Source: Arthrobacter sp. Marseille-P9274
GTDB lineage: Bacteria > Actinomycetota > Actinomycetes > Actinomycetales > Micrococcaceae
Direction of reading: 5' to 3'
Assembly: GCF_946892675.1 (NCBI RefSeq)
Contig: NZ_CAMPOV010000003.1
Location: 248,001-312,000, forward strand
DNA length: 64,000 nucleotides
The translations under genes and the position numbers were made by a program. Shown here in pieces: positions 7,021 through 48,862 of the stretch. Every line of letters starts with the position of its first letter. The first letter of the stretch is position 1. The notes under the pieces were generated by a model. That model was not told the DNA's origin. It saw nothing but the letters and a program-made list of their open reading frames with translations, and searched no databases.

Positions 7021-7027
7021 ATTCACC

Positions 7028-7183: not shown

Positions 7184-7230
7184 ACTCTTGATAGTTGCGA
7201 GTTCCACTGAAGCGTGACGCGCGAGGCTCC

Positions 7231-12489: not shown

Positions 12490-12500
12490 GGCAGGCAGCC

Positions 12501-31775: not shown

Positions 31776-32534
31776 TCAGGAGCCGGGGAGCCGGCTCTCG
31801 TCCAAGGGGTGCGCCGCCGTCGTGCCGTTGTCCGCATGCTGTGCGGCAAGGTCAAGGGGATGCGCAAATCCATGGCGGCCGACGACCACCCAGATGGCAA
31901 CGCAGTCTTCACGGTAGGGATTGCTCAACCGGTGAGGTGCGGTGGAATCGAAATTAAGGCTGTCACCGGGCTCAAGCGTCTGCGCGTTGAAGGCGACCTG
32001 GACGTCCAGCCTTCCGGAGAGCACATGCAGATACTCCCAGCCCGAATGGCGCATCAGGTTGTCAGGACTGCACGATTCGCTGCCTGCGGTATACGTGACG
32101 CGAAGAAATTCAGTGAGCGGATCGTCCTGGCTGGTAAGCCTTTCCCAACGGACGCCGCCGACCCTGATCTCGGGGCGTTCTGCTGCGGCCTGAAAGCCGG
32201 GCAAAGTGTCACCGCGGCGAACAGGCAATTGAACCGGCAGTGCCTCCTCAAAACGTTCCACAGGGGCTGACTCGGAGACCGGCAGCTGCGTGCCGGATCC
32301 GGCCATCATCGAGTCCAGCGACAGGCCGAGCTCGGACACGATGGCGTACAAGGTGCCGATAGAGGGCGTGGCACGCCCCAACTCCACCTGGGAGATAAAA
32401 CTGGCCGAAACGCCCACCCGCCGGGCCATCTCGCGCAGGGACATTTTGGCGTCCGTTCGGGCCTGCCTCAGACGCTCCCCAAGCTGAAGGCGGCTGAGGT
32501 CGAGTAGTGCCGAATCGTTTTCCGTACTTGGCAT
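31776..32534 (-). CDS. XRE-family regulator with cupin sensor domain
   Basis: A 252-residue protein. The N-terminal helix-turn-helix (about residues 18-75) reads LREMARRVGVSASFISQVELG, and a C-terminal cupin barrel has GWEYLHVLSGRLDV and LEPGDSLNFDSTAPHRLSNP. ATG 32534 follows GAGGAG. It is divergent from the ABC importer operon, across a region with palindromes overlapping a promoter. The cupin probably binds the imported compound or a product. Confidence 0.88.
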   Translation of the reverse strand: MPSTENDSALLDLSRLQLGERLRQARTDAKMSLREMARRVGVSASFISQVELGRATPSIGTLYAIVSELGLSLDSMMAGSGTQLPVSESAPVERFEEALPVQLPVRRGDTLPGFQAAAERPEIRVGGVRWERLTSQDDPLTEFLRVTYTAGSESCSPDNLMRHSGWEYLHVLSGRLDVQVAFNAQTLEPGDSLNFDSTAPHRLSNPYREDCVAIWVVVGRHGFAHPLDLAAQHADNGTTAAHPLDESRLPGS

Positions 32535-32683
32535 GAACTGCTCTCCTCGAAGGATGGACACGCAGGTGGCTTCCCGCGGAAGGCGCTGAAGGCGGCAGCT
32601 CCCAACGCCGGACGTGTAGTCCAGCTTATTGCAGCCCCTCTAAAGGAGCCAGAGTGTAAACCGGTGTCGCACAACTCCCCATA

Positions 32684-32728
32684 AGTGTAATCTATTACTT
32701 GACACTATGTTGCTGGTCACTTTACATT
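32684..32728 (+). promoter_or_regulatory. Promoter and overlapping operator of the ABC/hydroxyquinol operon
   Basis: TTGACA (32699-32704) and TACATT (32723-32728), 18 bp apart, form a good -35/-10 pair ending about 31 bp before the first gene. GTAAT-CT-ATTAC (32687-32698), a perfect palindrome, directly abuts the -35. AGTGT/ACACT (32684-32688 and 32702-32706) brackets it. GTGTAA also occurs at about 32654. A repressor bound here would block the promoter. Confidence 0.6.
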
Positions 32729-32759
32729 GATCTACATCACATCAATGAAAGAGGTTCCT

Positions 32760-34250
32760 ATGACCAACAGCCCAGCTGTGTTGCTTTCAGTGAGCGGGGT
32801 CTCCAAGCGGTTTGGCGGTGCCCGGGCGCTGGACAACGTATCGGTTGATTTCCACGCTGGAGAGGTTCACGCCCTGCTGGGCGAGAACGGCGCGGGAAAA
32901 AGCACCCTGGTTAAGATCATTGCCGGCGTCGTTCATGCCGATGCCGGCACCGTCTCGGGGCCGGCGGGGTCGAACCATCTCGACGTGGCGATGGTCTTCC
33001 AGGAGCTCTCCGTGGTTCCCGAGTTGTCCGTCCTGGACAATATGGCCCTGAGCATGCGCCGGGAGCGCGGAACCGTCCTGCGCCGCCAGCGGATGGAAAA
33101 GCGGATTCGCACGGCCCTTGATGCCGCCGGGCTGCAGGACGTGGAGCTGGGCATGCCGGTGGAGGCGCTGCCGCTGGCCAAGCGTCAGCTGCTGGAGATC
33201 GCCCGCGGTCTCGTTGCCGACGCGAAGGTCCTCATCCTCGACGAACCGACGGCGACCCTTTCGGACGTCGAGATCGCACGGGTGCATGAGGTGGTCCGTT
33301 CACTGACGGCCAAGGGACACGCCATCGTGTACATCACCCACCGGCTTGGCGAAGTCTTCACGCTCGCGGACCGGATCACCATCATGCGCTCCGGACAGGT
33401 CGTAGCGAACGGGCCGGTCGGTGACTTCACCATGGACTCCATGGTCACCCTGATGCTCGGTGAAGAACACCAGGGCGGAGTGGCCGTGCCCATCACGGAC
33501 GTTCCCGATGCCGGCATCCGGCGCGTGCTCAACGTGTCCGGCATCGGCTCCGGCAACCATTTCTCCGACGTCAGCTTCACCGCCGAAGCCGGCGAGGTGG
33601 TCGCACTGTTCGGGCAGATCGGCTCCGGCGCGGACGAAGTCGTCAGGGCGCTGGTCGGGCTCGCTCCCATCACTTCAGGAACGGTCACGCTCGACGGCCG
33701 GCAGCTGCCGCACCTGAACCGCGCCGGCTCGCAGAAGCACGGCATCGCCTACGTCTCAGCGGACCGGGTGCTCGAGGGCGTCTTCCTCAGCGGCACGGTG
33801 GCCCGCAACATCAGCTCCGGCGCTTTAGGCGACGTCAGCCGGATGGGAGTCATTCAGCGTGCCGACGAATTCAGGCTGGCGGCCAGGATCTCCGAAGAAG
33901 TGGCCTTCGACGCCAACCGCATCAACATCCCGGTGGGTTCCCTCAGCGGCGGCAACCAGCAGAAGATCGCCATCGGCCGTGCCCTGGCGACCAAACCTTC
34001 CGTCCTGGTGCTCAACGAGCCAACCCGCGGAGTAGACATCGGAGCGCGTTCCGAAATCTACCGTGCGCTGCGCAAGCTGGCGTCCGCGAACGTTGCCGTT
34101 GTCGTCTACTCCAGCGACATCGTCGAGCTGCGCGAGCTCGCCGACCGGGTCATCACCATGTTCCGCGGCCGGGTCGTCAACAACCAATCCATTGCCCAGG
34201 TCCAGGACAACCAGATCCTGGCCGAGATCCTCCATGGAGCAGCAGCATGA
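32760..34250 (+). CDS. ABC importer ATP-binding protein, ribose/sugar type (RbsA-like)
   Basis: A 496-residue tandem ATPase. The first domain has Walker A GENGAGKSTLVK and Walker B LILDEPTATLS. The second has FGQIGSGADEVVRAL in place of a canonical P-loop and the signature LSGGNQQKIAIGRAL, as is normal for RbsA/MglA/XylG. ATG 32760 follows GAGGTTCCT. It energises the two permeases downstream. The family carries pentoses, hexoses, inositol, autoinducer-2 and related polyols, not usually aromatics. Confidence 0.92.
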   Translation: MTNSPAVLLSVSGVSKRFGGARALDNVSVDFHAGEVHALLGENGAGKSTLVKIIAGVVHADAGTVSGPAGSNHLDVAMVFQELSVVPELSVLDNMALSMRRERGTVLRRQRMEKRIRTALDAAGLQDVELGMPVEALPLAKRQLLEIARGLVADAKVLILDEPTATLSDVEIARVHEVVRSLTAKGHAIVYITHRLGEVFTLADRITIMRSGQVVANGPVGDFTMDSMVTLMLGEEHQGGVAVPITDVPDAGIRRVLNVSGIGSGNHFSDVSFTAEAGEVVALFGQIGSGADEVVRALVGLAPITSGTVTLDGRQLPHLNRAGSQKHGIAYVSADRVLEGVFLSGTVARNISSGALGDVSRMGVIQRADEFRLAARISEEVAFDANRINIPVGSLSGGNQQKIAIGRALATKPSVLVLNEPTRGVDIGARSEIYRALRKLASANVAVVVYSSDIVELRELADRVITMFRGRVVNNQSIAQVQDNQILAEILHGAAA

Positions 34251-35260
34251 ACACCCGAATCGCCACTGCATCCGCGCCCCCCGTGCGGCCAAGCCGCCGG
34301 TTCGAGGCACCCCGGAACCTGAAAGCGGCACTAACGGACGGATCCGTCGTCATCGGGCTCGTCACCGTGGTCCTCTTCTTCATCTCCACGGCCGCCATCC
34401 CGGGATTCGCCACGCTGCAGAACCTGCGGGCACTCTTCCTGTCCGTGGCGCTGGTGGGCATCGCCGCCATCGGCCTGAGCATCATCACGATTGTCGGCAA
34501 GATGTTCTCCCTGTCGGTCAGCGCGATGATCGCCGCATCCACCATCGTGTTCGCCTCGACGCTTCAATACGGCGCCTGGACCGCGATCATCGCCGCAATC
34601 CTGTTCGGCGCCGTCACGGGAGCGGCACAGGGCTTCCTGGTCGGCAAGCTAGGCACCGACCCGATCGTGACCACCATCGCGGCCGCAGCGGTAATCACGG
34701 GCGTGGCACAGATCCTCACCGGCGGACTGAACGTAGCCAGCCAGGGCGACGCCGGAGTATTCCGCCAGTCCGTCCTCGGCGTCATTCCCTTCCAGGTCTT
34801 CATATTCTTCCTCGTGGCCGCCGCCAGCTGGTGGTGCCACCGATACACCGTCATCGGCCGCAAGATCACGATGGTCGGCCTGAACGAAAAAGCCGCGCTG
34901 GTCTCCGGACAGCGGTCCTGGCCCATGGTCCTGCTCGCCTTCGTCGTCTCGGGGGTACTGGCCGGACTGGCCGGCGGTCTGCTCGCCTCGGAAGCCGGCC
35001 AGGGCAACCTGCAGCTCGGCGCGACCTTCGGTTTCGATGCGATCACTGCCGTCGTCGTCGGCGGCATCAGCATCAAGGGCGGACTGGGCAACCCCCTGGG
35101 GGCAGCCGTAGGAGCCGTACTCGTCGGGCTGCTGGGCAATGCCCTCATCCTGCTCGGGTTCAGCTACGAAATCCAACTCATCTTCAAGGGCGTACTCGTG
35201 TTACTGGCTGTTGTTGGAACCGGTATCGCGACCAACCGCCAGTCGGGCAGAAAGCGCTAG
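34247..35260 (+). CDS. ABC sugar-type permease (RbsC-like), first
   Basis: A 337-residue integral membrane protein with 8-10 hydrophobic segments and the family motif AITAVVVGGISIKGGLGNPLGAAVGA near the end. It overlaps the ATPase stop by 4 nt (ATGA). It pairs with the next permease as a heterodimer. Confidence 0.9.
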   Translation: MNTRIATASAPPVRPSRRFEAPRNLKAALTDGSVVIGLVTVVLFFISTAAIPGFATLQNLRALFLSVALVGIAAIGLSIITIVGKMFSLSVSAMIAASTIVFASTLQYGAWTAIIAAILFGAVTGAAQGFLVGKLGTDPIVTTIAAAAVITGVAQILTGGLNVASQGDAGVFRQSVLGVIPFQVFIFFLVAAASWWCHRYTVIGRKITMVGLNEKAALVSGQRSWPMVLLAFVVSGVLAGLAGGLLASEAGQGNLQLGATFGFDAITAVVVGGISIKGGLGNPLGAAVGAVLVGLLGNALILLGFSYEIQLIFKGVLVLLAVVGTGIATNRQSGRKR

Positions 35261-35264
35261 GACA

Positions 35265-36260
35265 ATGATCAAGCTCTACTGGAACTTCCGGACCCTGTTG
35301 GCCTGTGCCTTGGCCGCAGTAGCCTTCGCGGCCTTTGCGGCAACCGTCCCCGGATTCATTAACCCCGGCAACCTGTACGCTCTGCTGCAGACATTCGCGC
35401 CGCTGGCCCTCGTGGCCGTCGGCCTGGCCATCGTCATGATTGCCGGCGAATTCGATCTCTCGATTGCCGGACTCATGCCGCTGGCAGGACTCATCGCAGT
35501 GCGGGTCTCCGAATCCGCCGGTATCCCCGCCGGAATAGCCGCTTCCATCCTCACCGCCGGCGCCGTCGGCCTGCTCAACGGCTGGCTGACAACCCGATTC
35601 GCAGTACCCTCGCTGGCGATCACCGTCGGAACGCTGGTACTGACCATCGGACTGGGGTTCGCCGTCACGGGCGGCAAGGTCGTCACACTTACCAACTACG
35701 AGTTCGGGCTCTGGCTCGATGAGGGCATCCTCGGCCTGCTCTCCCCCCGGGCACTGTTCATGCTGCTGCTGGTCGCCGGCGCCGTGTGGCTGATGGCCAA
35801 GACCTGGCACGGCGTAGTCGTCCGCGCCACCGGAAGCGATTCGGCCCGTGCGGCTGCCTCCGGCCTGCCGGTAGGACGGACCCTGATGATGGTCTTTGTC
35901 CTCTCCGCCCTCTTTGCCGGGATCGCCGGATCCCTCCAGGGACTGTCCCTGGCCGCCGGTTCCCCCGGGGACGCGCTGACCTTCCTGCTTCAGGTCGTCA
36001 CCGCGGCGATTATCGGCGGCGTCGCGCTCACCGGCGGCAAGGGCCAGATCGGCGGCGTCATCGCCGGCGCCCTGCTGCTGGCGGTTGTCAGCAACGGCAT
36101 GAGCCTGCAGGGCACCAGCACCGCCGTCATCCAACTGGTCAACGGCGGACTCCTGCTGGCCATCGTCATCTTCGACGGACCTCTGAACCGCCTTTCCCAG
36201 CGCTCATTGGACCGGCCGGCCCTTGGCGGCCAGGCCCCTGCCAGCCAACCCGCCGCCTAG
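35265..36260 (+). CDS. ABC sugar-type permease (RbsC-like), second
   Basis: A 331-residue permease of the same family. The conserved EFDLSIAGLMPLAG loop follows TM3 and VTAAIIGGVALTGGKGQIGGV lies in the C-terminal half. ATG 35265 lies 4 nt after the first permease stop, next to TAGGA. Two different permeases in one operon is a layout seen in some sugar and polyol importers. Confidence 0.9.
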   Translation: MIKLYWNFRTLLACALAAVAFAAFAATVPGFINPGNLYALLQTFAPLALVAVGLAIVMIAGEFDLSIAGLMPLAGLIAVRVSESAGIPAGIAASILTAGAVGLLNGWLTTRFAVPSLAITVGTLVLTIGLGFAVTGGKVVTLTNYEFGLWLDEGILGLLSPRALFMLLLVAGAVWLMAKTWHGVVVRATGSDSARAAASGLPVGRTLMMVFVLSALFAGIAGSLQGLSLAAGSPGDALTFLLQVVTAAIIGGVALTGGKGQIGGVIAGALLLAVVSNGMSLQGTSTAVIQLVNGGLLLAIVIFDGPLNRLSQRSLDRPALGGQAPASQPAA

Positions 36261-36273
36261 GAGGCAGCCCACC

Positions 36274-37284
36274 ATGAAAAAGTCACCCATCAAGGCTCTT
36301 GCCGTGGCCGCATCGCTGGTCGTGTCACTGGCGCTGGCATCCTGCGGCAGTCCGTCTGCAGGGCAGGGCACCGAGACGAGCGCGGGAACTCAGGGGAAGA
36401 AAGTCACCCTCCTGACCGTGGCCCAAAGCTGCGACTACTGCGCGAAGCATACGGAGGAATTCAAGCGGATCGCCGCCGAGGCGGGTCTGGACCTGACCGT
36501 CATCGTGAACAACTTCAACGCTGCCGAACAGGCCCAGCAGGTCAACCAGGTCATCAGCACGGACCCCGACGCGGTCGTCGTCTGGCCCGCCGATGCGACA
36601 GCCATCATTCCCTCGCTCGTGCGGCTGAAGCGGGCGGAAATCCCGGTCGTCGTGGCCAATTCCTATCCCCAGACGAAAGACAAGAGCCTCTGGACCGCCT
36701 ACACCGGGCCGAACGACATCGCGAACGGCGAGCAGGCCGCCCTGGCCCTGATCGAAGGATTCAAGGAAAAAGGCTACGGAGACCAGGGCAACGTTGTCGC
36801 CCTGCTGGGCCCGCTGGGCACCCCGCCGTCCATCGACCGGCTGAAGGGCTTCGAAGACACATTGGCGGAGAAAGCGCCCGGAATCAAAGTCATCGGCACA
36901 CAGCCCGGCAACTGGGACCAGACCACCTCGACGTCGGCCAGCGCCGCACTGTTCACCCAGTACGGCGGGAAGGACCTCAAGGGCATGTATTCGGAAGCGG
37001 ACAACATGCTCGCTGGCGCCCTGGTCGCCGCGGATCGCGCCGGCATTGACGTCCAAAAGATGGTCATGGTCGGGCACAACTGCTCCATCGAGGGCTACAC
37101 GAACATCAGTGAAGGAGACCAGTACGCCACCGTCCTGCAGAGCCCCATCGAAGACGGAAGTCTCGCCGCGAACACCGTCATCAACATTCTGGAAGACAAG
37201 CCGGTGGAGAAGGACAACTTCCTGGTTCCCCGCAGCATCAACAAGACCAACCTTTCCGAGTGCGACGCCGCGGTCGGAAAGTAA
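36274..37284 (+). CDS. Sugar-type periplasmic-binding lipoprotein
   Basis: A 336-residue substrate-binding protein. It has a lipoprotein signal, MKKSPIKALAVAASLVVSLA followed by LASC, with Cys as the lipidated residue. The mature part is a type I periplasmic-binding fold: the NFNAAEQAQQVNQVIS and DAVVVWPADATAIIP segments are like ribose/inositol-binding proteins. It starts at ATG 36274 behind TAGGAGGCAGCCCACC. It sets the specificity of the importer, but the ligand cannot be read by eye. Confidence 0.9.
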   Translation: MKKSPIKALAVAASLVVSLALASCGSPSAGQGTETSAGTQGKKVTLLTVAQSCDYCAKHTEEFKRIAAEAGLDLTVIVNNFNAAEQAQQVNQVISTDPDAVVVWPADATAIIPSLVRLKRAEIPVVVANSYPQTKDKSLWTAYTGPNDIANGEQAALALIEGFKEKGYGDQGNVVALLGPLGTPPSIDRLKGFEDTLAEKAPGIKVIGTQPGNWDQTTSTSASAALFTQYGGKDLKGMYSEADNMLAGALVAADRAGIDVQKMVMVGHNCSIEGYTNISEGDQYATVLQSPIEDGSLAANTVINILEDKPVEKDNFLVPRSINKTNLSECDAAVGK

Positions 37285-37297
37285 TAGGGAGGAATCC

Positions 37298-38119
37298 ATG
37301 AGCACCTGGACCATTGATCTGCCCGACTGCGTGGTCGTGACCGGCACCGCCAGCGGACTCGGCCTGGAATGTGCCAAGTCCCTGCTGGCTGCCGGCAGCC
37401 GCGTGATCGGCGTCGATCTCGCCGCACCCGAAGCCGACCTGGCGGGACATCCGCTCTACCTGCACCTCGCGGGAAGCGTGACCGACCAGGCCCTCTGGGA
37501 CCGTGTCGCCGAATCCGCATCCGTTTACGGAGGCGAATCCCTGGGTTACATCGGCTCGGCGGCCGTCCTGTCGGTGGACCTGCTGGAGAACGAGAGCATG
37601 GACTCCTGGCGCCGCACCTGGGAAATCAACGTGCTGGGAAACGTGCTCGGCCTCAAGACGCTGCTCCCGCAGCTCAAGGCCGCGCGGCATGCAAGCGTCG
37701 TGGTGGTGAGCAGCATCGACGCGGACTTCGGCGAGCAGCAGCTGGCGTCCTACGCGTCCTCCAAGGCAGCGCTGTCCGGCGCGGTCCGTGCCATCGCACT
37801 GGACTACGCCCGCCACACCATTAACATCAACCTGCTCGCACCGGGCCCGATGAGGGCCGGGCTGTTCAACCGCCACCTCGCCTCGGCGGAAGACCCACAG
37901 AAATTCCTCGCCACCCGGGAAGCCCGCCAGCCCAAGGGACGCATCACCGGAGCCGACGAAGTCGCCAACGCCGCCCTGTTCCTGCTGAGCAGCCGGGCAT
38001 CTGCAGTCTTCGGCACTACGCTGGTCGCCGACGGGGGCCTCACCGCCGGATTCGACTTCCGCACCGGTGAGGAAGGCTCCACAGCCGCACCCGTGCCGGC
38101 TGCGCTCCCGGCCCCCTGA
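37298..38119 (+). CDS. Short-chain dehydrogenase/reductase, first
   Basis: A 273-residue SDR. The cofactor motif is VVVTGTASGLGLECA, then VVVVSSID (catalytic Ser) and YASSKAALSG (Tyr/Lys). It starts at ATG 37298 behind AGGGAGGAATCC, 13 nt after the binding protein. Placed straight after the importer, it probably oxidises a hydroxyl of the imported compound or an early intermediate. Substrate unknown. Confidence 0.88.
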   Translation: MSTWTIDLPDCVVVTGTASGLGLECAKSLLAAGSRVIGVDLAAPEADLAGHPLYLHLAGSVTDQALWDRVAESASVYGGESLGYIGSAAVLSVDLLENESMDSWRRTWEINVLGNVLGLKTLLPQLKAARHASVVVVSSIDADFGEQQLASYASSKAALSGAVRAIALDYARHTININLLAPGPMRAGLFNRHLASAEDPQKFLATREARQPKGRITGADEVANAALFLLSSRASAVFGTTLVADGGLTAGFDFRTGEEGSTAAPVPAALPAP

Positions 38120-38148
38120 CACATCCACTCCCCTCGGAAGGACACACC

Positions 38149-38949
38149 ATGGAACTTTCCCTCAGCGGCAAGAAGGCTCTTATCACCGGTGCCGGCAGCG
38201 GCATCGGACGCGCCACCGCGCTCGAACTCGTCGCAGAAGGCTGCACCGTCGCCGCGCTGGACATCGACGAGGGTTTGCTCAAGCAGCTCAGCGCCGACGC
38301 GGCCGGAGGCCCGGGCACCGTGCTGACCCTGGCCGCCGACTTCAGCCGTGCCGACGACACCACTGCCAAGGTCCAGGCGGCCCTCGACGAGCTGGGCGGC
38401 CTCGACCTGCTCATCAACAACGTCGGGGCCGGTTCCGTGCGTGAATTCGCGGACCTGACCGACGAGGACTGGCAGAAGACGCTGGACCTGAACTTCATGA
38501 GCTACGTCCGCTCCATCCGCGCAGCGCTTCCCGCGCTGCGCCAGTCAAGCGCCCCGGTGATCATCAACAACGCATCGGACCTGGCCCGGCAACCCGAAGC
38601 CATGCCGGTGGACTACTCGGCCAGCAAAGCAGCCGTACTGGCACTGACCAAGTCCCTGGCCCGCGCCGAAGGACCCCGCATCCGGGTCAATGCCGTGGCT
38701 CCCGGCCCCATCTGGACGCCGTTCTGGACCAAGCCCGGAGGCTTCGCCGAAACCATGGCAGCGGCCTACAACATGGAACCGGAGGCCGCCGTTGCCCACG
38801 AAATGAAGCAACGGCAACTGCCGCTCGAACGGCTGGGGCAGCCGGAAGAGGTTGCCAAGGTCATCGTCTTCCTGTGCAGCCCGGCCGCCGGCTTCGTCAC
38901 CGGATCCGTGTGGGGAGTCGACGGCGGCAGCATCCGCAGCATCATCTGA
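38149..38949 (+). CDS. Short-chain dehydrogenase/reductase, second
   Basis: A 266-residue SDR with ALITGAGSGIGRATA, NNVGAGSV (the NNAG position), a Ser in NNASDL, YSASKAAVLALTKSLA, and a C-terminal GSVWGVDGGSIRS. The catalytic Ser/Tyr/Lys set is complete. It starts behind GGAAGGACACACC. Two SDRs plus an MDR dehydrogenase in one operon imply several successive alcohol/ketone conversions. Confidence 0.88.
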   Translation: MELSLSGKKALITGAGSGIGRATALELVAEGCTVAALDIDEGLLKQLSADAAGGPGTVLTLAADFSRADDTTAKVQAALDELGGLDLLINNVGAGSVREFADLTDEDWQKTLDLNFMSYVRSIRAALPALRQSSAPVIINNASDLARQPEAMPVDYSASKAAVLALTKSLARAEGPRIRVNAVAPGPIWTPFWTKPGGFAETMAAAYNMEPEAAVAHEMKQRQLPLERLGQPEEVAKVIVFLCSPAAGFVTGSVWGVDGGSIRSII

Positions 38950-38987
38950 GTCCCGCAGCATTAACCCCGAACAAGGAGACCCTCCTC

Positions 38988-40478
38988 ATGGCAGATCAAG
39001 ACATCGCGCGAATCCTCGAGCTGGAAGACGAACGCTTCGACGCAGTGCTTGCCAAGGACTTCGACGCGTTCGCCCGGCTCTGCCACCCACGGCTGAGCTA
39101 CACGCATTCAAACGGCCTGCGCGACACCCTGGAAAGCTACGTCGAACAATGCCGGGCCGGTGTCTATGACTACCAGAGGATCGACCACCCGGTTGAAGAG
39201 GTCATCCTCGTCGGAGACACCGCCCTGGTGGTCGGCCGCATGGAGGCCGACCTGCAGGTCAACGGCCGGTCCACCCGGCTGGACAACGGCTCCCTTGCGG
39301 TGTGGACGCGCGAGGGCGGCACGTGGAAGTTCCTCGCCTACCAGCCCAGCCCGCGGCCGAGCGGCATTCAGTCCAGCCGGCAGCCGACGGACAAGGAAAA
39401 CGAAGAAAGCATGGTCAAAAAGGTGAACGAATTCCGCTACGAAGCCCTCCCGATGCGCGTAACCTTCGGCGCCGGAACCCTGGCCTCTCTCCCGGAGGAG
39501 GTGCGATCGCTTGGCCTCAAACGCGTCCTGGTTCTGGCCACCCCCTTCCAAAAGGATCTCGCCGAGCAGGTTTCCGAACAGTTGGGCGAGCTCAGCGCCG
39601 GCGTACACGCCGAGGCCGAGATGCACGTGCCGATCGAATCGGCGCACAAGGCCCGTGAACGTGCCGAATCCGCGCAAGCCGACGGATACGTGGCGGTCGG
39701 CGGGGGTTCGAGCACCGGGCTCGGAAAGGCCATTGCCCTCGAATTCGGGATGCCGATCATCGCAGTGCCCACCACATATGCCGGCTCGGAAATGACGCCT
39801 GTCTGGGGACTGACCGCGAACGGCGAAAAGAAAACAGGCCGGGACCCCAAGGTCCTGCCGACCAGCGTGATCTACGATCCCGAGCTGACCCTGACCCTGC
39901 CCGTGGGAATGTCCGTCACCAGCGGCTTCAACGCGATCGCCCATGCCGTCGAGGGCCTCTACGCGCCGGACGGATCCCCCATCATCTCATTGATGGCCGA
40001 AGAGGGCGTTCGCGCGCTCGTCCGTGCTCTGCCCAGCATCGTCGAGAACCCCGCCGACAAGGACGCCCGCTCCGACGCGCTTTACGGGGCATGGCTCTGT
40101 GGCGCGACGCTGGGTGCCACCACCATGTCGCTGCACCACAAGCTCTGCCACACCCTGGGCGGGACCTTCAACCTGCCCCACGCCGAAACACATACCGTCG
40201 TCCTGCCGTATGCGCTGGCCTATAACCAGGACCACGCGCCCCAGGCCATGCCTGCGTTGCGCCGTGCCACGGGAGCAGAAAACCCCGCTGCCTACCTGCG
40301 GGAGCTCAGTCTGAAGCTCGGGGCGCCGGGTTCCCTGCGTCAACTGGGCCTGGAAGAGGCAGACATCGAAAAAGCCGTCGCGATCGCGACCAAGAACCCC
40401 TACTCGAACCCGCGGGAAGTGACCGAAAAGGGCATCCGCGACCTGCTCACCAAGGCGCTCAACGGCGCAGACCTGTAG
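38988..40478 (+). CDS. NTF2/SnoaL-like domain fused to maleylacetate reductase
   Basis: One open frame of 496 residues. Residues 1 to about 125 (LELEDERFDAVLAKDFDAFA, then GGTWKFLAYQPS) are an NTF2/SnoaL-like cone-shaped domain. A linker of about 15 residues follows. Residues from 142 are a full maleylacetate reductase ([52 protein letters not shown]). ATG 38988 has AAGGAG upstream. An internal ATG at 39411, behind GAAGAAAGC, could also give a separate reductase. NTF2-fold proteins include dehydratases and cyclases (scytalone dehydratase), so the extra domain may catalyse a dehydration before ring cleavage. The fusion is seen directly; its function is inferred. Confidence 0.85.
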   Translation: MADQDIARILELEDERFDAVLAKDFDAFARLCHPRLSYTHSNGLRDTLESYVEQCRAGVYDYQRIDHPVEEVILVGDTALVVGRMEADLQVNGRSTRLDNGSLAVWTREGGTWKFLAYQPSPRPSGIQSSRQPTDKENEESMVKKVNEFRYEALPMRVTFGAGTLASLPEEVRSLGLKRVLVLATPFQKDLAEQVSEQLGELSAGVHAEAEMHVPIESAHKARERAESAQADGYVAVGGGSSTGLGKAIALEFGMPIIAVPTTYAGSEMTPVWGLTANGEKKTGRDPKVLPTSVIYDPELTLTLPVGMSVTSGFNAIAHAVEGLYAPDGSPIISLMAEEGVRALVRALPSIVENPADKDARSDALYGAWLCGATLGATTMSLHHKLCHTLGGTFNLPHAETHTVVLPYALAYNQDHAPQAMPALRRATGAENPAAYLRELSLKLGAPGSLRQLGLEEADIEKAVAIATKNPYSNPREVTEKGIRDLLTKALNGADL

Positions 40479-40524
40479 GGCGCCGGCCCCGGCCCTCCCT
40501 GTTGATCCTCCCGAAAGGCCCATC

Positions 40525-41598
40525 ATGACCCATCCTGCACTCGACGAAACGACCGCACCGCCCAGCATCGGCGTACGCGCGGTCATTGTCGACCGCGGCC
40601 CGGACTCCTCCATCAGCGCCCGGGTCGGTACGGCCAAACTGGGACCGCTACCGCCGTTCGCGCTGCTCGTCCGCCCCGCTTACATCGGGATCTGCGGCAC
40701 CGACCTGGAAATTCTGCACGGGCGGATGCCGGAGACCTTCCTGATTAACTATCCGCACATCATGGGCCACGAGTGGTCCGGCGTGGTGGAACAGGTCGGC
40801 GAATCCGTGACGGGGTTCAACGTCGGCGACAGGGTCCTGGGCCACGGCCATCTCGGCGGCAACGACTGGTTCGGCGTCACCCACGACGGTGCCGCAGCCG
40901 AGCTGTTCCACGTGCCGGCAGCCATGTGTTTCCCTGTCCCGGACAGCGTGGACATGCTCACCGCCGCGATGATCGAACCCTTCGCCTGCGTTCTTACCGG
41001 GGTGAAGAAAATCGGTGGAATCAGCGCAGCGGACACCGTTCACATCCACGGCCTGGGCGCTATCGGCCTGGCCGCCCTCGTCCAGGCCGTCACAGCCGGG
41101 GCGAAGACAGTGGTCTTCGATCCCAGTACACGCCGTCGTCAGGCCGCGCTGGAAATCGGCGCCGCAGCCGCGTTCAATCCGCTGGAGACCGCGGACATCA
41201 ACACCGCGGCCGCCGACGCCATCGGGCACGGCTTCGCCGACGTCGTCATCGAAGCCTCCGGCAACCCGGCCGCCCAGGCCGCCGCGCTGGAAAGCGCCGA
41301 TCACAACGGACGCGTACTCCTGATGGGCGTCTCCAAACCCAAATCAGCCCCCGCCCGGCTCGGGCTGCTCCAAGAGCGCAACCTCACGATTACCAGTTCC
41401 ACCGGAGCACCTGTAGACGTATGGCCCGCGGCCATCCGCTACGTCGAACGCGCCAAGATCGATCTCGGTGCCATCGTTTCCTCGATCCATCCGTTCGCCG
41501 ACGCAGAGGAAGCCATCCGCTGCGCCGAAGACTCCGAGGCCGAGATCAAAGTCATGCTCTCCCCGACACCGGTCTCCGGCGTCGGCGCCGCCAAATAA
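40525..41598 (+). CDS. Zinc-dependent MDR polyol-type dehydrogenase
   Basis: A 357-residue dehydrogenase of the sorbitol/threonine/inositol type. Catalytic-zinc residues are in IGICGTDLEILHG and IMGHEWSG. The structural-zinc loop is missing: the usual four-Cys stretch is replaced by HGHLGGNDWFG. The NAD region reads VHIHGLGAIGLAALVQA. It starts behind CCGAAAGGCCCATC. Its place between the fusion reductase and a TIM-barrel isomerase suits oxidation of a ring or chain polyol. Confidence 0.85.
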   Translation: MTHPALDETTAPPSIGVRAVIVDRGPDSSISARVGTAKLGPLPPFALLVRPAYIGICGTDLEILHGRMPETFLINYPHIMGHEWSGVVEQVGESVTGFNVGDRVLGHGHLGGNDWFGVTHDGAAAELFHVPAAMCFPVPDSVDMLTAAMIEPFACVLTGVKKIGGISAADTVHIHGLGAIGLAALVQAVTAGAKTVVFDPSTRRRQAALEIGAAAAFNPLETADINTAAADAIGHGFADVVIEASGNPAAQAAALESADHNGRVLLMGVSKPKSAPARLGLLQERNLTITSSTGAPVDVWPAAIRYVERAKIDLGAIVSSIHPFADAEEAIRCAEDSEAEIKVMLSPTPVSGVGAAK

Positions 41599-41625
41599 AC
41601 CAAACACACTTCGAAGGGACTCCTG

Positions 41626-42564
41626 ATGAGCGAGAACAACATCATCGAAAACCGCGACCTGCTGGCCTCCTGCTGGACCTGGGCCGGAGACGCCGCCCCG
41701 CTGCGTGGCGACGAAACCAGCCCGATCGACATCCGCACCCGTGTCGAGACCGTGGCGCGGGCCGGTTGGAAGGGCGTCGGGCTGATCCACGCCGACCTGC
41801 CCCGAATTGAAGCAACCATCGGCATCAAGGGACTCAAGCAACTGCTGGATGACAACGGCATCGTGCACGTGGAAATGGAATTCCTGGCCGACTGGTGGAA
41901 AACGGGCACTCTGCGCGCCGAGTCCGACCGCTGGCGCGGGATACTTCTGGACACCGCCGGCATCCTGGGCGTAGAAACCATCAAGATCGGTGCCGAACTC
42001 GCCGTTACCGGGGAACCCGCCCCTGTCGATGCCACGGCCTTCCACGAGGAATTCGACGCACTGGCAACGCAGGCAGGCAATGCGGGCACCCGGGTCGCGC
42101 TGGAGCCCATGCCGATGAACAACCTCAAAACCATCGAACTCGGAGCCAAGTTCGTCACGGAAGTCAACAACCCCTTCGGCGGACTGACCGTGGACACCTG
42201 GCACACCTACCGCGGCGGAACCAGCTACGCGGACCTGGCCAACATCCTTCCCATGGACAAAGTCTTCGTCGTCGAGATTGACGATGCCCGAGCCGAAGTT
42301 GTCGGCAGCCTCTGGGAAGACACCATCAACGAACGCCTCTACCCCGGCGAAGGAGAAATGGACACCGCAGGCTTTATCAAGGCCATGCATGAAGCAGGCT
42401 GGCGAGGCCACTGGGGCGTAGAAATCCTGGCAGAATCCCACCGTCGACTGCCGCTGGAAACCGCGGTCACCCGGGCCTACGCCGCAGCCGCTGCAAGCCT
42501 CGACGCCGCCGAACGGCTCATCGCCGAGGAACAAACAGTCTCCGGCACAGCAACCCAGCGCTAG
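41626..42564 (+). CDS. TIM-barrel sugar isomerase/dehydratase (IolE/IolI-like)
   Basis: A 312-residue protein of the xylose-isomerase-like AP-endonuclease 2 family. Likely metal ligands are Glu in [10 protein letters not shown], Asp/His in LTVDTWHTY, Asp in EIDDARAE and Glu in WGVEIL. The family includes inosose dehydratase, inosose isomerase, hydroxypyruvate isomerase and 3-keto-glycoside processing enzymes. In an operon ending in hydroxyquinol dioxygenase, isomerisation or dehydration of a keto-polyol is the plausible role. It starts 27 nt after the dehydrogenase behind GAAGGGACTCCTG. Confidence 0.85.
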
Positions 42565-42572
42565 GAAAGACC

Positions 42573-43505
42573 ATGACCGAGCAGACCCCTACCATCGAAA
42601 CCGGCATCCTCCCGGGGACACCCACCACCTCCGGCGAACAGCAAGCCGTCGAGGAACAACTGATCCGGAACGTGCTCCACTCATTCGATAACTGCCAGGA
42701 TCCACGGCTGAAGCAGATCATGCAGTCACTGACCCGGCACATTCACTCCTTCATCCGCGATGTCCGCCTGACCGAGGCGGAATGGAACGCAGCTATCGAA
42801 TTCCTCACCGCCGTCGGCCACATCACCGACGACAAGCGACAGGAATTCATCCTGCTTTCCGACGTCTTCGGCGCCTCCATGCAAACCATCGCCGTGAACA
42901 ACGAGAAGATCGCCGATGCGACCGAGGCCACCGTTTTCGGGCCGTTCTTCGTCGAAGACGCCCCGCTGATCGAGAACGGCGGCGACATAGCCGGAGCAGC
43001 GCCCGGCCAGCCCTGCTGGGTCGAGGGCAGCGTCAAAGACACGAACGGCAACCCCCTCCCCGGTGCACGCATCGAGGTCTGGGAAGCCGATGAGGACGGG
43101 TTCTACGACGTGCAGTACACCGACCAACGCGTCTCAGGCCGCGCACACCTATTCGCCGACGCGGACGGAAACTACAGGTTCTGGGGGCTGACCCCCACAC
43201 CGTACCCGATTCCCCACGACGGACCAGTCGGACAAATGCTGGAAGCAGTCGGACGCTCCCCCATGCGCGCCTCGCACCTGCATTTCATGGTCAGCGCCCC
43301 GCACATGCGCACCCTCGTGACCCACATATTCGTCCGTGGCGACGAGTTGCTGAAGTACGACACCGTCTTCGGGGTCAAGGAATCCCTCGTGAAAGACTTC
43401 GAGCAGCAACCCCCGGGAACCCCGACACCCGACGGACGCGACCTGGGCGACCGGTCATGGGCCCGAACCCGGTTCGACATCGTACTGGCTTCAACAAGCA
43501 CGTAG
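42573..43505 (+). CDS. Hydroxyquinol 1,2-dioxygenase, copy 2
   Basis: A 310-residue intradiol dioxygenase, highly similar to copy 1. Predicted Fe(III) ligands Tyr178, Tyr211, His235 and His237 keep the same spacing. The N-terminal 25 residues differ and copy 1 has a short insertion near residue 108. It starts behind AGGAAAGACC, 8 nt after the isomerase. It is the last gene of the ABC operon, so that pathway must reach a 1,2,4-trihydroxybenzene. A hairpin follows at 43519. Confidence 0.93.
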
Positions 43506-43518
43506 ATCAGGTTAAGCA

Positions 43519-43549
43519 CCGGACGGCCTTCGTCGAGGAGGTCGTCCGG
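43519..43549 (+). terminator. Hairpin terminator of the ABC/hydroxyquinol operon
   Basis: CCGGACGGCC (43519-43528) pairs with GGTCGTCCGG (43540-43549), one G-U pair, 11-nt loop. It lies 13 nt past the dioxygenase stop. No T-run follows. Confidence 0.6.
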
Positions 43550-44414: not shown

Positions 44415-45905
44415 ATGGACGTCGAGTTCGAGCATCTATCGACAGGCCCCCTGCTCTTGATCTGCGCGGGCGCGATCGCAGTACTGCTGTTCTTGATCCT
44501 GAAGGTCAAGATGCACGCAGTGATCGCTCTGCTGATCGTGAGCGTTGGCACGGCCTTCGCTACTCGTATCCCTACCGGCTCGATCATGGATTTGCTGCTG
44601 GGCGGTCTGGGCGAAACCCTTGGGGACATCGCCTTCCTGATCGCCTTCGGCGTGATGTTCGCCAGGCTCATTGAGTTCAGCGGCGGCACAAAGGTTCTTG
44701 TTGACGCGTTGATCGACAAGCTTGGTGAGAAGCGCGCGCCGCTGGCACTTGGCATTGCTTCGCTGGTGTTCGGCATCCCGATCTTCTTCGATGCGGCCTT
44801 CCTGGTCATGCTTCCGCTGTATCTGGCCGTCGCCCGTCGCGTGGGTGGCAGCATCCTGCTTTATGTGCTCGGTCCGGCTGCTGCCCTGTCGATAATGCAC
44901 ATGCTGATGCCCCCGCACCCGGGAGTTACGACTGCCACCGTGCTGTTGGGCGCAGACATCGGCCTGGTGATGCTGTTCGGGCTGATCATTGCAGTACCGT
45001 CCTGGTACCTGGGCGGGCATCTGCTCGGGGCCCGGATGGGCCGTCGATTCATGATTCCGGTCCCCGAGGCCTTCTCCGGCGGCCCCCAGGTCGACTCGCC
45101 CTACACCTCACCCGGCCGCGCGGCGCCCGACAGCAAGGGTGGTGCCGACTCGCCAATGCCCGCGACATCCCGCACGACCACCGCCGTTCGCACCGACGCG
45201 GAGACGGCGGCCGCCCCGCCGAGCGTCCCGAAGCTCCTGTCTCTCATCTGCCTTCCGCTCGTGTTGATCCTGCTCAACACCGGGACGAGCATGCTGGCCA
45301 AACTCACACAAAATGAGGACGCACAGTGGGTACAGTTTCTCGAACTCATCGGGTCAGTCCCCATCGCCCTGCTCATCACGGTCGTCATCGCCAGCTACGT
45401 GCTGGGGACCCGCCGCGGCGTGGGCCAGGTGTTTCTCGAAGACATGCTGGACAACGCGCTCAAGCCCATCTGCTCTGTCCTCCTGGTCGTCGGTGCCGGT
45501 GGCATGTTCGCTGCCATTCTGGAAGCAAGTGGAATCGGTGATGCCATCGCCGGCGCCCTGGACGCCAGCGGACTCCCGCTCCCCGTGGCACTGTTCCTCA
45601 TCTGCGGCATCATGAGTGCGGCAGTGGGCAGCACGACTGTCTCAATCACGACGGCTGCCGGCCTTATGGGCGCAACCATCGCCGCAGCCGACCTGAACCC
45701 GCTCCAACTCACGGCACTGGTTCTCGTGATGGCCGGCGGGTCCGGGATCCTGCCGCACGTCAACGACGCCGGCTTCTGGCTCATGAGCCGGCTCCTCGGT
45801 ATGACCGTCTCGGAGACGCTCAAGACCTGGACCATCGTGAAGACGATGATCGGCGTCTTCGCAGCCCTGTTCGCAACCGTTCTCTACCTCATCGCCGGTC
45901 TGTAA
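44415..45905 (+). CDS. GntP-family carboxylate/gluconate permease
   Basis: A 496-residue membrane protein with about 12-14 segments. Family hallmarks are GIPIFFDAAFLVMLPL, MPPHPGVTTATVLLGADIG and GSTTVSITTAAGLM. A polar, Pro/Thr-rich cytoplasmic loop of about 60 residues lies in the middle. ATG 44415 follows CGGAGATTCA. GntP proteins take up gluconate and other hydroxy- or oxo-acids. Here it heads a module for tricarboxylate-like intermediates, so a substrate such as a pyrone dicarboxylate or citramalate-type acid is possible. Confidence 0.9.
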   Translation: MDVEFEHLSTGPLLLICAGAIAVLLFLILKVKMHAVIALLIVSVGTAFATRIPTGSIMDLLLGGLGETLGDIAFLIAFGVMFARLIEFSGGTKVLVDALIDKLGEKRAPLALGIASLVFGIPIFFDAAFLVMLPLYLAVARRVGGSILLYVLGPAAALSIMHMLMPPHPGVTTATVLLGADIGLVMLFGLIIAVPSWYLGGHLLGARMGRRFMIPVPEAFSGGPQVDSPYTSPGRAAPDSKGGADSPMPATSRTTTAVRTDAETAAAPPSVPKLLSLICLPLVLILLNTGTSMLAKLTQNEDAQWVQFLELIGSVPIALLITVVIASYVLGTRRGVGQVFLEDMLDNALKPICSVLLVVGAGGMFAAILEASGIGDAIAGALDASGLPLPVALFLICGIMSAAVGSTTVSITTAAGLMGATIAAADLNPLQLTALVLVMAGGSGILPHVNDAGFWLMSRLLGMTVSETLKTWTIVKTMIGVFAALFATVLYLIAGL

Positions 45906-45922
45906 ACCGGAAGGAGCCCTCC

Positions 45923-46321
45923 ATGCCAATCGTCATGATCCACCGTTCCTCGCGGGATGATGCACCCGCACTCACCGCTGCGCAGGAACTCAGCCGCGAG
46001 CGGGGCGAGGACCTCATCGTCATGGCCGCAGGATCGGGAAGCCGCGCCGACGGCGCAGCCGAACTCGAATACCAGGCCTTCCTCGACCAAGTGCGGCACC
46101 ACCTCGACAGCCAGACCCAATGGCGCGCCGAACTGATCGCCCCCGGGGACGACCCCACGGAAGCGCTCGTCGAACACGTCGAAACCATCCGGCCCTCCGT
46201 GGTGGTCATCGGCACGCATCATCGATCGGCGGTCGGCAAACTGATCTTCGGCCACGACCTCCAACGCCTGCTCATGGACATAGAAGTCCCGATCCTGCTC
46301 ATTAAGCCCCCGCGCAAATGA
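45923..46321 (+). CDS. Universal stress protein (UspA) domain protein
   Basis: A 132-residue single UspA domain. The C-terminal ATP-binding motif reads [24 protein letters not shown], close to the G-2x-G-9x-G(S/T) pattern but shifted. It starts at ATG 45923 behind GGAAGGAGCCCTCC. It lies between the transporter and an RraA-like gene, with a 4-nt overlap to the latter, so it is part of the operon. Its role is unknown. Confidence 0.8.
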
Positions 46322-46878
46322 CCCCCTCCACTGCCACCGCTCCGTTCACCCCAATGAAAGCGACACCGATGTTCACCCACAAGAAATTCCTTGCCGGATC
46401 CCACACCACCTCCGACCTTGCCGATCTGATCGGCGACGATGTCCGCTCATGCGATGATCAGATGAGGAACTACGGAGGCCGGACACGTTTCGCCGGGACC
46501 ATCCGCACCCTGCGGAGCCCCGATGACAACGTGCTGCTCAAAGACGTGCTGTCCGAACCCGGCGAAAACCAGGTTCTGGTCGTCGACGGCGAAGGATCTA
46601 CCCACACCGCGCTGATCGGAGACGTCATCGCAGCCATCGGCGCGCGCAACGGGTGGGCCGGCGTGATCATCAACGGCTCGGTCAGAGACCAGCATCTGCT
46701 CGGCCAGGTCACGATAGGAGTAAAAGCGATCGGCTCAAACCCCCGCCGCAGCGGCAAAGCCGGCTCCGGTGAAGCGGACGTCCCGGTCACCTTCGGTGGC
46801 GTGACCTTCACCCCCGGCGAGACCGTGTACAGCGACGAAGACGGCATTATTGTGGTGCCCTCACCCATCGAGGGCTGA
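46318..46878 (+). CDS. RraA-like protein (HMG/CHA aldolase family)
   Basis: A protein of 186 residues, or about 169 if ATG 46369 is used. The core has [32 protein letters not shown] and [15 protein letters not shown]. The Gly-Asp and Arg-Asp residues match the pyruvate- and metal-binding sites of 4-hydroxy-4-methyl-2-oxoglutarate / 4-carboxy-4-hydroxy-2-oxoadipate aldolases. Those end the protocatechuate 4,5- and gallate pathways. The PrpF- and LigI-like neighbours support such a role over RNase E regulation. Confidence 0.8.
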
Positions 46879-46911
46879 CATTTTGGAACAACAAGGACTC
46901 AGGGGGCCCGT

Positions 46912-47595
46912 GTGGCTACGTCGATCAGCAATGCAAGCACTCGTGTTTCAGCTGGAACCATCGTCTACCGACAGCTGAGGGACCAGATCGCTGGCCTCGA
47001 GCTGCAACCAGGGACGCGCCTGAACGAGAGCGAGCTGTCCGCTACCCTGCAGGTCAGCAGGACCCCGCTGCGCGAAGCCATCCGGATGCTCCTGACCGAA
47101 GGTCTCGTTGTCCAGCTGCCCACCGGGGGCGTCGTCGTCAGCGAGCTCAGCGAGCGTCACCTTCACGAGGTCTACTCGGCGCGCGCCGCGATCGAAGAGG
47201 TGATCGCGCGGCAGGCCTGCCGGAACGCAACTGCCGACGACGTCCGCCGGCTCCGCACACTGCTGGAGCGGCTCGAACGAAGCCTTGAGGACGCCGGCAC
47301 GACCATGGAACTCGGCGGCGACTTTCATCGCGTCCTGGCGGACATCGCGGACCACTCGGTGTGCAACCGGCTGCTCGACCAGCTCAGCCCGCACACCCAC
47401 AGGTATCGCACCCTCTCCAACGACACCCGGGAACGCCGCGAACAAGCCCTCGCTGAACACCGGGAAATCGTTCAGGCACTCGAGACCGGAGACAGCGACC
47501 TCGTCGGCCAACTGATGAGACGACACATCGAGACGGCCGCCGGCGCCGCGGCCGAATCCGACATTCTCGCACCCGCTGCATCGGCCATGACCTAA
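46912..47595 (+). CDS. GntR-family (FCD) regulator
   Basis: A 227-residue regulator. The N-terminal winged helix has GTRLNESELSATLQVSRTPLREAIRML, followed by an FCD ligand domain with ARAAIEEVIARQA, DFHRVLADIADH and AEHREIVQALETGD (probable metal-binding His). GTG 46912 is the start; AAGGA lies about 15 nt before it. It sits inside the operon it probably controls. Confidence 0.88.
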   Translation: MATSISNASTRVSAGTIVYRQLRDQIAGLELQPGTRLNESELSATLQVSRTPLREAIRMLLTEGLVVQLPTGGVVVSELSERHLHEVYSARAAIEEVIARQACRNATADDVRRLRTLLERLERSLEDAGTTMELGGDFHRVLADIADHSVCNRLLDQLSPHTHRYRTLSNDTRERREQALAEHREIVQALETGDSDLVGQLMRRHIETAAGAAAESDILAPAASAMT

Positions 47596-47655
47596 ACATT
47601 TGATTTAAGGCGCCTCACCCGAATGACCTTCACGCACCACACCAGGAGACCGCTA

Positions 47656-48807: not shown

Positions 48808-48862
48808 TGAGTCACCGACACGGCAACCTCCTATCGCTGGCTAGACACGAACCCGGTTCAAA

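Follow-up and report, generated by a model that had tools for sequence, protein, structure and literature searches.

A conserved operon in Arthrobacter that may convert cyclitols to hydroxyquinol before ring cleavage

How could a bacterium obtain an aromatic ring for cleavage from an operon that encodes a sugar-type importer and several dehydrogenases, and no recognisable hydroxylase? We analysed a stretch of 64,000 nucleotides from Arthrobacter sp. Marseille-P9274 (the window; contig NZ_CAMPOV010000003.1, positions 248,001 to 312,000), in which a tight plus-strand operon extends from the start of an rbsA gene to the stop codon of a dioxygenase gene (32760-43505), with intergenic gaps of -4 to 46 nt and 909 nt between the dioxygenase stop at 43505 and the next called gene. 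In our judgement this operon probably serves the catabolism of a cyclitol to 3-oxoadipate, by way of a keto-cyclitol and of hydroxyquinol (1,2,4-trihydroxybenzene). The lower two steps of this pathway draw on strong family assignment; the upper three draw on fold, active site, conserved linkage and published parts of a Corynebacterium system. A previous sequence-only reading had placed one plus-strand operon at 32684-43549. Pfam and NCBIfam models and comparison with solved structures confirm the operon and all of its genes in the order then given, and move its end back by 44 nt to the last stop codon. As that reading also claimed, Pfam and NCBIfam scans recognise no aromatic hydroxylase among the operon's genes. 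The gene list likewise holds no iolB, iolC, iolD or iolE; the IolD of the host genome (4.78 Mb in 16 contigs) lies on a different contig (C1:167889).

In the proposed pathway, an importer of the CUT2 class would take up the cyclitol. Short-chain and medium-chain dehydrogenases (SDR and MDR) would then oxidise it to a keto-cyclitol, a task that would fall to an IolG/OxiD-type dehydrogenase and an OxiC-like Gfo/Idh protein in a sister type of cluster. A TIM-barrel protein resembling the dehydratase QuiC1 would remove water beta to the ketone on the way to hydroxyquinol, with a second water lost through another protein or spontaneously. Hydroxyquinol 1,2-dioxygenase would open the ring to maleylacetate, and maleylacetate reductase (MAR) would yield 3-oxoadipate, from which succinyl-CoA and acetyl-CoA would follow.

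Comparison with solved enzymes makes the family assignments of dioxygenase and MAR secure. The dioxygenase matches hydroxyquinol 1,2-dioxygenase (1tmx) at an E-value of 6.9e-143, whereas the best catechol 1,2-dioxygenase reaches just 2.9e-29. The reductase matches the solved maleylacetate reductases 3hl0 and 3w5s at about 1e-108, and two solved entries named alcohol dehydrogenases, 3jzd and 3iv7, at 1.5e-131 and 3.1e-93. Class membership of the importer follows from its two-domain RbsA-type ATPase, RbsC-type permeases and Peripla_BP_4 protein.

The formation of the ring would depend on the TIM-barrel protein, whose structural model has a pLDDT of 94.9. By E-value, its top six fold matches are all chains of 5hmq (TM-scores of 0.74-0.76 on the query), which excerpts of PMC7442255 describe as the 3-dehydroshikimate dehydratase QuiC1; Lmo2234 and then IolI come next in the ranking. 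Profile comparison gave E-values of 2.7e-39 for Lmo2234, 2.7e-28 for QuiC1, 5e-23 for IolI and 1.7e-6 for IolE (3cny), and the IolE model TIGR04379 is not among the protein's two NCBIfam matches at E 0.001. Of the "IolE/IolI-like" label attached to this protein earlier, the second half therefore holds, while IolE is distant and QuiC1 is the nearer relative. The same excerpts of PMC7442255 give the active site of QuiC1 as Arg64, Leu97, Glu134, Leu136, Asp165, His168, Gln191, Ser206, Arg210 and Glu239, and state that the enzyme requires a divalent metal. Leu97 was not mapped, and by our own count the numbering of the solved chain is two higher. Among the nine residues mapped from that account, five are identical in the window protein (E134=E160, D165=D190, H168=H193, R210=R237, E239=E266), two are replaced conservatively (Q191 by E217, S206 by T233) and two are changed (R64 to A88, L136 to M162). 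E160, D190, H193, E217, R237 and E266 are invariant in 38 TIM proteins; since these include proteins both linked and unlinked to ring cleavage, the six residues mark the chemistry of the whole family and not that of the linked members alone. A QuiC1-like site that lacks Arg64, which in QuiC1 presumably holds the carboxylate of the substrate, may be read as performing this metal-dependent dehydration too, but on a ring that bears no carboxylate. The window protein scores 54 bits on the curated QuiC model NF042435, over positions 16-254 of 635, far below the cut-off of 1200.

The quinate/shikimate route offers the closest parallel: a hydroxylated carbocycle is oxidised by quinate dehydrogenase, aromatised by a metal-dependent TIM-barrel dehydratase (QuiC or QsuB) and, as protocatechuate, ring-cleaved by protocatechuate dioxygenase. 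The logic of oxidising, aromatising and cleaving would be the same, and the TIM fold and most of the active-site residues mapped from the excerpted QuiC1 account match. The window protein, however, has Ala88 in place of Arg64 and no C-terminal HPPD-like domain, the product assigned here is hydroxyquinol, and cleavage feeds MAR. The operon route would thus work like the conversion of quinate and shikimate to protocatechuate but stand outside it, differing in product, in lower pathway and at the Arg64 position. With the resorcinol/hydroxyquinol pathway the operon shares its lower steps and a related dioxygenase and MAR; it has dehydrogenases and the TIM protein in the place of the hydroxylase. 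The myo-inositol (iol) pathway has the same importer class, an IolG-class dehydrogenase that recurs in the sister type, and TIM relatives in IolI and, more remotely, IolE. There the ring is opened by IolD, whereas the operon, without iolB, iolC or iolD and with a TIM protein that does not match the IolE model, would open it by means of an intradiol dioxygenase.

Is this gene set peculiar to one strain? A search of 295 genomes of the host's family with the TIM protein found, besides its own copy, one place at 78% identity (genome G273) and 22 at 40-48%; 18 regions were fetched. A wider alignment scan of named genomes gave 239 relatives, the best 80 of which correspond to 77 distinct TIM loci. 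In the DNA fetched, MAR and an intradiol dioxygenase both lie near the TIM gene in 25 of the 77 loci, and in 17 of the 47 loci for which at least 20 kb was in hand; one more locus (L077) has MAR without the dioxygenase, and its contig ends at that point. Two of the 25 linked loci (L059 and L060) carry identical TIM rows. Six loci (L057, L058, L059, L060, L063, L067), together with the window, form type A, with SDR1 or a relative of it, SDR2, an NTF2-like domain, the MDR and a CUT2 importer; in L058, L059, L060 and L067 a second XRE gene and an OxiC-like Gfo/Idh gene, 80-83% identical to that of type B, follow the TIM gene. Type B, the sister type, comprises 12 loci (L069, L073, L074, L076, L079, L084, L090, L095, L096, L098, L101, L115) with an IclR-type regulator, an OxiC-like Gfo/Idh protein, TIM, an IolG-type dehydrogenase, MAR, dioxygenase, and either a CUT2 importer or a sugar-porter protein of the major facilitator superfamily (MFS); an aldo-keto reductase is present in eight of the 12 (not in L090, L095, L096 or L101). 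Type C, from Geodermatophilaceae and a Frankiales bin (L061, L064, L065, L066), has at least three Gfo/Idh genes with TIM, dioxygenase and MAR. Three alphaproteobacterial loci (L112, L124, L126) combine TIM, MAR and dioxygenase with SDRs; in L112, genes for two CoA-transferase subunits and a thiolase come next, and L112 and L124 each contain a small YCII protein.

In a tree of 78 TIM rows, 27 of them labelled as linked (the window and L077 included), the linkage label changes 6 times, compared to a mean of 22.7 after shuffling. Linked proteins fall into three clades: types A and C together (11 of 12 rows linked), type B (13 of 14, the fourteenth row being a second copy within L084) and the alphaproteobacterial group (three of four). 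A set conserved across clades and gene orders argues against a chance neighbourhood. Partner choice of the MAR points the same way within the family, where counts were made on a separate draw of 290 genomes, so that this set may differ from the 295 searched for TIM: all 13 MARs at least 63% identical to that of the window, which is itself counted among them, have a TIM gene no more than 15 kb away, and none of the 70 at 51% or less does.

What connects the set to cyclitols? All three type-B IolG proteins tested pass the model TIGR04380 (L040 381, L042 377 and L052 395 bits; cut-off 355), and sugar-porter MFS proteins score above cut-off in the two type-B loci tested; another type-B locus, L073, has a ChvE-like binding protein. 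IolD is found above cut-off in all 13 family genomes that have the TIM/MAR pair. In 9 of the 11 type-B genomes the TIM-linked MAR lies no more than 50 kb from IolD, whereas none of the 12 other MARs of the same 13 genomes does; the exceptions are G258, where the two are far apart, and G123, in which, as in both type-A genomes (G000, the host, and G273), they are on separate contigs. The window MDR has as its best NCBIfam match the inositol-type model IolM (NF041097), but at 134 bits it stays below the cut-off of 450.

Both halves of the proposed pathway have published counterparts in Corynebacterium glutamicum. According to excerpts of PMC7764795, the IclR-type regulator Cg3388 (IhtR) represses iolT2-rhcM2D2, which encodes an inositol importer, a maleylacetate reductase and an intradiol dioxygenase; 1,2,4-trihydroxybenzene needs the lowest concentration to release this repressor, followed by hydroquinone and indole. 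Excerpts of PMC9603128 describe oxiC-cg3390-oxiD-oxiE (cg3389-cg3392), in which OxiD and OxiE are inositol dehydrogenases, OxiC has no known function and Cg3390 is annotated as a putative sugar phosphate isomerase. The excerpted text of the former paper does not mention oxiC or cg3389-cg3391, and that of the latter mentions neither trihydroxybenzene nor quercitol; to that extent, the two halves appear not to have been joined to each other. They are joined in the type-B locus L101 of C. pacaense, where dioxygenase, MAR and MFS transporter are followed, divergently, by IclR regulator, Gfo/Idh, TIM, IolG and Gfo/Idh, the order published for C. glutamicum in those excerpts; our assignment of orthology rests on gene order in this congener and not on C. 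glutamicum sequence. Compared to this iol2 cluster as excerpted, the window differs in its SDRs and MDR, which stand in place of Gfo/Idh proteins, in its importer, which is of the CUT2 class, and in its regulator, an XRE-cupin protein. Regulators of the IclR type in type B are long, at about 520-530 residues, with two IclR-matching stretches per chain (L046, 6613-8184; L045, 11537-13132). Around the type-B cluster L052 there are a further sugar porter, an additional Gfo/Idh gene and an additional TIM-barrel gene.

Which cyclitol would enter the pathway? Tentatively, we favour a deoxy-inositol (quercitol), as the earlier reading did; it suits the chemistry and the published dispensability data excerpted below, and its identity remains that of a candidate. 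Loss of two hydrogens and two waters from quercitol (C6H12O5) gives C6H6O3, the formula of hydroxyquinol. In our own derivation, a ketone at C1 next to the CH2 at C2, with loss of the beta-hydroxyls at C3 and C5, leaves oxygens at C1, C4 and C6, that is, 1,2,4-trihydroxybenzene. Acid dehydration of 2-deoxy-scyllo-inosose gives hydroxyquinol. Inososes, in contrast, dehydrate to tetrahydroxybenzenes, and myo-inosose in acid gives 1,2,3,4-tetrahydroxybenzene (excerpts of PMC11467972). An inosose that loses two waters keeps four oxygens, so an inositol substrate would need one added reduction; as a fallback, another inositol isomer or derivative could reach the same product through an oxidation, a reduction and the loss of three waters, with no net redox change. 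The linked sets of types A, B and C, and likewise those of L112 and L124, include at least two dehydrogenases, and in L126 two SDR-like matches lie upstream of the core of three genes; such numbers suit an oxidation plus a reduction, or the handling of isomers, and the gene count therefore does not decide. Of the inositols, myo-, scyllo- and D-chiro-inositol were rejected as substrates because of growth data in excerpts of PMC9603128. There, IolG or OxiD enables a C. glutamicum strain without cg3389-cg3392 and the other inositol dehydrogenase genes to grow on myo- and D-chiro-inositol, and OxiE enables it to grow on scyllo-inositol, so that Cg3390 and OxiC are unneeded for all three in this species. 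The same growth weakens a role of Cg3390 as an IolI-type isomerase acting on D-chiro-inositol. As far as those excerpts go, growth on three inositols without these genes speaks for another cyclitol. Oak and eucalypts have been reported to contain quercitol (excerpts of PMC8919412). The binding protein gave no readable substrate, its nearest solved relatives being mixed sugar binders; 4rsm, 4rs3 and 5hko are reportedly structures solved with polyols, from which we take no ligand.

It is a real possibility, though short of probable, that Arthrobacter, Geodermatophilaceae, Rhodococcus, Corynebacterium and Rhizobium degrade quercitols, which are plentiful in oak and eucalypt, via a deoxy-inosose, a new QuiC1-like subfamily of TIM dehydratases and hydroxyquinol cleavage, in a pathway assembled repeatedly from different dehydrogenases. 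A quercitol route that aromatises first and cleaves afterwards would account for the presence in C. glutamicum of MAR, dioxygenase and a regulator that responds to hydroxyquinol beside inositol dehydrogenases. Full-text literature searches did not find quercitol together with hydroxyquinol, with inositol dehydrogenase, or with dehydrogenase and deoxy-scyllo-inosose; among the matches listed, only PMC7764795 joined cyclitols to hydroxyquinol. The gene set occurs in several bacterial groups, and we did not find it described as one pathway in the literature searched. If the proposal is true, the quinate/shikimate route would be joined by a second natural way of turning a saturated carbocycle into an aromatic that can be ring-cleaved. 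It would also assign functions to oxiC, cg3390 and rhcM2D2, genes whose role in the model organism C. glutamicum is unclear, suggest how soil bacteria use quercitol, and provide enzymes for making hydroxyquinol from cyclitols without oxygenases.

Several observations weigh against a pathway from cyclitol to hydroxyquinol. The majority of TIM loci (52 of 77, and 30 of the 47 represented by 20 kb or more) lack the MAR/dioxygenase pair. Lmo2234, a protein without known function, exceeds QuiC1 both in TM-score (0.79 versus 0.76) and in profile score. The second water loss has no protein assigned to it, and the NTF2-like domain is present in just 6 of the 25 linked loci, all of them type A. The binding proteins tested, which are both distinct from that of the window, are ChvE-like (type B, L073) and ribose-binding-like (type A, L058), not cyclitol-specific. 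Proximity to IolD is unevenly sampled, as five of the nine genomes concerned belong to one genus (four of six genera in all). In excerpts of PMC7764795, 5 mM inositol hardly affects IhtR binding, and resorcinol hardly does either; in those of PMC9603128, iol2 is raised on myo-inositol and yet dispensable for growth on it.

Other counterpoints bear on a specific rival: ordinary aromatic catabolism, in which a hydroxylase encoded elsewhere would make hydroxyquinol from resorcinol, hydroquinone or a similar compound, and the upstream genes would be an unrelated, co-transcribed polyol pathway. At class level (394 genomes), 12 MAR places of 57-64% identity occur in genomes without a TIM match at E 1e-40. 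We fetched 11 MAR regions, namely ten of these places and one with a 55% MAR; in four (L135, L137, L138, L139) dioxygenase and MAR adjoin a flavin (FAD) aromatic-ring hydroxylase, in six further regions the single neighbour checked is no hydroxylase, and L136, L140 and L141 show no dioxygenase of this type in the region fetched. The MAR subfamily, a perfect marker of TIM clusters within the family, thus failed at class level, and we use it as local evidence only. That MAR and dioxygenase adjoin a hydroxylase in some loci and TIM in others indicates that the lower pathway is a module used in two settings. Hydroxylases found elsewhere, when used to probe the 25 linked loci, matched solely in L126 of Sphingomonas, where an FAD hydroxylase lies about 3.5 kb from TIM, and in L067, where a weak hydroxylase-like match (21-28%) lies 6.6 kb beyond TIM and outside the cluster span. 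L126 may be an ordinary aromatic cluster, possibly a different use of this TIM family; its region 410-8939 encodes the FAD aromatic hydroxylase, an epoxide hydrolase-like protein and a TonB receptor near TIM, MAR and dioxygenase. The host genome, too, has further MAR and dioxygenase loci. Against this stands the co-occurrence of TIM, dehydrogenases, MAR and dioxygenase over three TIM clades and several gene orders, and no hydroxylase was recognised inside the 25 linked spans. These spans contain 231 called genes of at least 80 residues, 229 of which match a probe family or YCII; the genes unmatched to probe families are four short ones, two YCII genes and two in L096 (139 and 121 residues). 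A match here means tblastn at E 1e-9 to a probe, so that broad families such as SDR and ABC count, and the L126 span is three genes. We regard ordinary aromatic catabolism as quite unlikely.

The glycosylated phenol that the sequence-only reading had named as its main alternative is also unlikely in our view. On that account, dehydrogenases would convert a hydroxyquinol glycoside to the 3-keto-glycoside, the TIM protein would eliminate the aglycone, and the hydroxyquinol set free would be cleaved. Elimination of an aglycone from a 3-keto-glycoside, with Gfo/Idh and TIM pairs involved, is a feature of levoglucosan and C-glycoside breakdown, and both the sugar-type importers and the ChvE-like binding protein would suit such a substrate. 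The TIM profile, however, lies far closer to QuiC1 and IolI than to the glycoside-type proteins 7bvr/7drd (E 0.3), of which we take 7bvr to be a C-deglycosidase of the AP_endonuc_2 family, DgpC1 (9m3b; E 2) and 3-keto-glucoside 4-epimerase (0.31). None of the 229 assigned span genes is a glycosidase, the other two coming from L096; the three type-B IolG proteins tested reach only 65-71 bits on the levoglucosan dehydrogenase model (cut-off 650); and most type-B clusters lie close to iolD. Very unlikely, finally, is salvage, in which dioxygenase and MAR would clear hydroxyquinol or tetrahydroxybenzenes arising by spontaneous water loss from the inososes and diones of inositol catabolism. It would fit the excerpted acid chemistry of myo-inosose, the nearness of nine of the 11 type-B clusters to iolD, and a Modestobacter locus (L062) whose cassette lacks dioxygenase and MAR, which counts against cyclitol-to-hydroxyquinol catabolism as well. 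An importer is nevertheless present in most clusters and a QuiC1-like TIM protein in all, and both type-A genomes tested (G000, G273) have cluster and iolD on different contigs. In L062, a Modestobacter bin, about 70 nt separate the TIM match from the Gfo/Idh match behind it (4127-6143); in L061, L064, L065 and L066 dioxygenase and MAR lie between the two.

The claim that the ring is made within the pathway thus gains from the QuiC1-like fold and site, from linkage with inositol-type dehydrogenases and sugar transporters, from nearness to iolD and from the excerpted C. glutamicum data; its substrate and NTF2 parts are weaker. The NTF2-like domain had been proposed as a needed dehydratase, a role that we no longer assign to it. 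By tblastn (E 1e-9) it was found, besides the window, in six of the 77 TIM loci (L057, L058, L059, L060, L063, L067). Fold matches of its model (pLDDT 88.9) are CaMKII hubs and NTF2 proteins without known function, and scytalone dehydratase is absent from the 50 listed of 1407 matches. The reported fusion of NTF2 and MAR stands as a single uninterrupted open reading frame of 496 codons (38988-40478), which has an internal ATG in frame at 39411; L039/L057 and L063 encode the two proteins separately. In Aldersonia (L063) three genes follow one another, for NTF2, dioxygenase and MAR. No dioxygenase gene separates NTF2 from MAR in the window, and the dioxygenase at the end of its operon shares 68-83% identity with the type-B enzymes and 47% with the one from the sister cluster L039. 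One frame for NTF2 and MAR, together with a type-B-like terminal dioxygenase, suggests that an inner dioxygenase was lost and replaced.

Table 1. Features of the operon and its upstream region (window coordinates).
Feature	Position	Strand	Basis and remarks
XRE-family HTH + cupin regulator	31776..32561	-	Pfam HTH_3 and Cupin_2 above cut-off; 198 nt upstream of and divergent from the operon
Promoter-like TTGACA-18-TACATT	32699..32728	+	Consensus match alone; 1 found against 1.5 expected in region shuffles (weak)
CUT2 sugar-importer ATPase, RbsA/AraG type	32760..34250	+	Pfam ABC_tran in two stretches; best NCBIfam AraG, 370 bits (below cut-off 689)
CUT2 permease 1	34247..35260	+	Pfam BPD_transp_2
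CUT2 permease 2	35265..36260	+	Pfam BPD_transp_2
CUT2 substrate-binding lipoprotein	36274..37284	+	Pfam Peripla_BP_4; nearest solved 4rsm (2.5e-21), then ribose, CUT2 and YtfQ binders
SDR dehydrogenase 1	37298..38119	+	Pfam adh_short_C2; relatives in L063 (65%), L112 (47%) and L124
SDR dehydrogenase 2	38149..38949	+	Pfam adh_short_C2; 80-82% in Arthrobacter/Kocuria loci, 62-64% in L112 and L124
NTF2-like (DUF4440) domain	38988..39410	+	Pfam DUF4440, 66 bits; N-terminal part of the reading frame shared with MAR
Maleylacetate reductase (MAR), Fe-ADH family	39411..40478	+	Solved relatives; 82% identity in L039
Zinc MDR dehydrogenase	40525..41598	+	Best NCBIfam IolM (scyllo-inosose 3-dehydrogenase, NF041097), 134 bits (cut-off 450)
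Xylose-isomerase-like TIM barrel, putative aromatising keto-cyclitol dehydratase	41626..42564	+	Pfam AP_endonuc_2; model fold and profile matches to QuiC1
Hydroxyquinol 1,2-dioxygenase	42573..43505	+	1tmx, E 6.9e-143

Scans of the operon region for promoters and terminators gave no excess above shuffles. The sister cluster L039 likewise has an XRE-cupin protein in front, 70% identical to the window regulator. A search of the host genome with the OxiC-like Gfo/Idh protein returned nothing at 1e-10, in a search that had no positive control. Overall, MAR is found at 5 places in the host genome and intradiol dioxygenase gives 10 matches there, and a second pair of MAR and intradiol dioxygenase lies in the window itself, at about 11425-13412 (G000:C3:259425-261412). 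PhyH-family (phytanoyl-CoA dioxygenase-like) genes occur near TIM clusters in two distant groups (L052, 5368-6567; L065, 6476-7753). Downstream of the operon, the next plus-strand cluster (44415-49630) encodes a GntP permease, Usp, an RraA-like aldolase, GntR, a PrpF/4-oxalomesaconate-tautomerase-like protein and an amidohydrolase. Relatives of PrpF, GntP, Usp and GntR directly precede the sister operon L039, and the two gene sets may therefore travel together.

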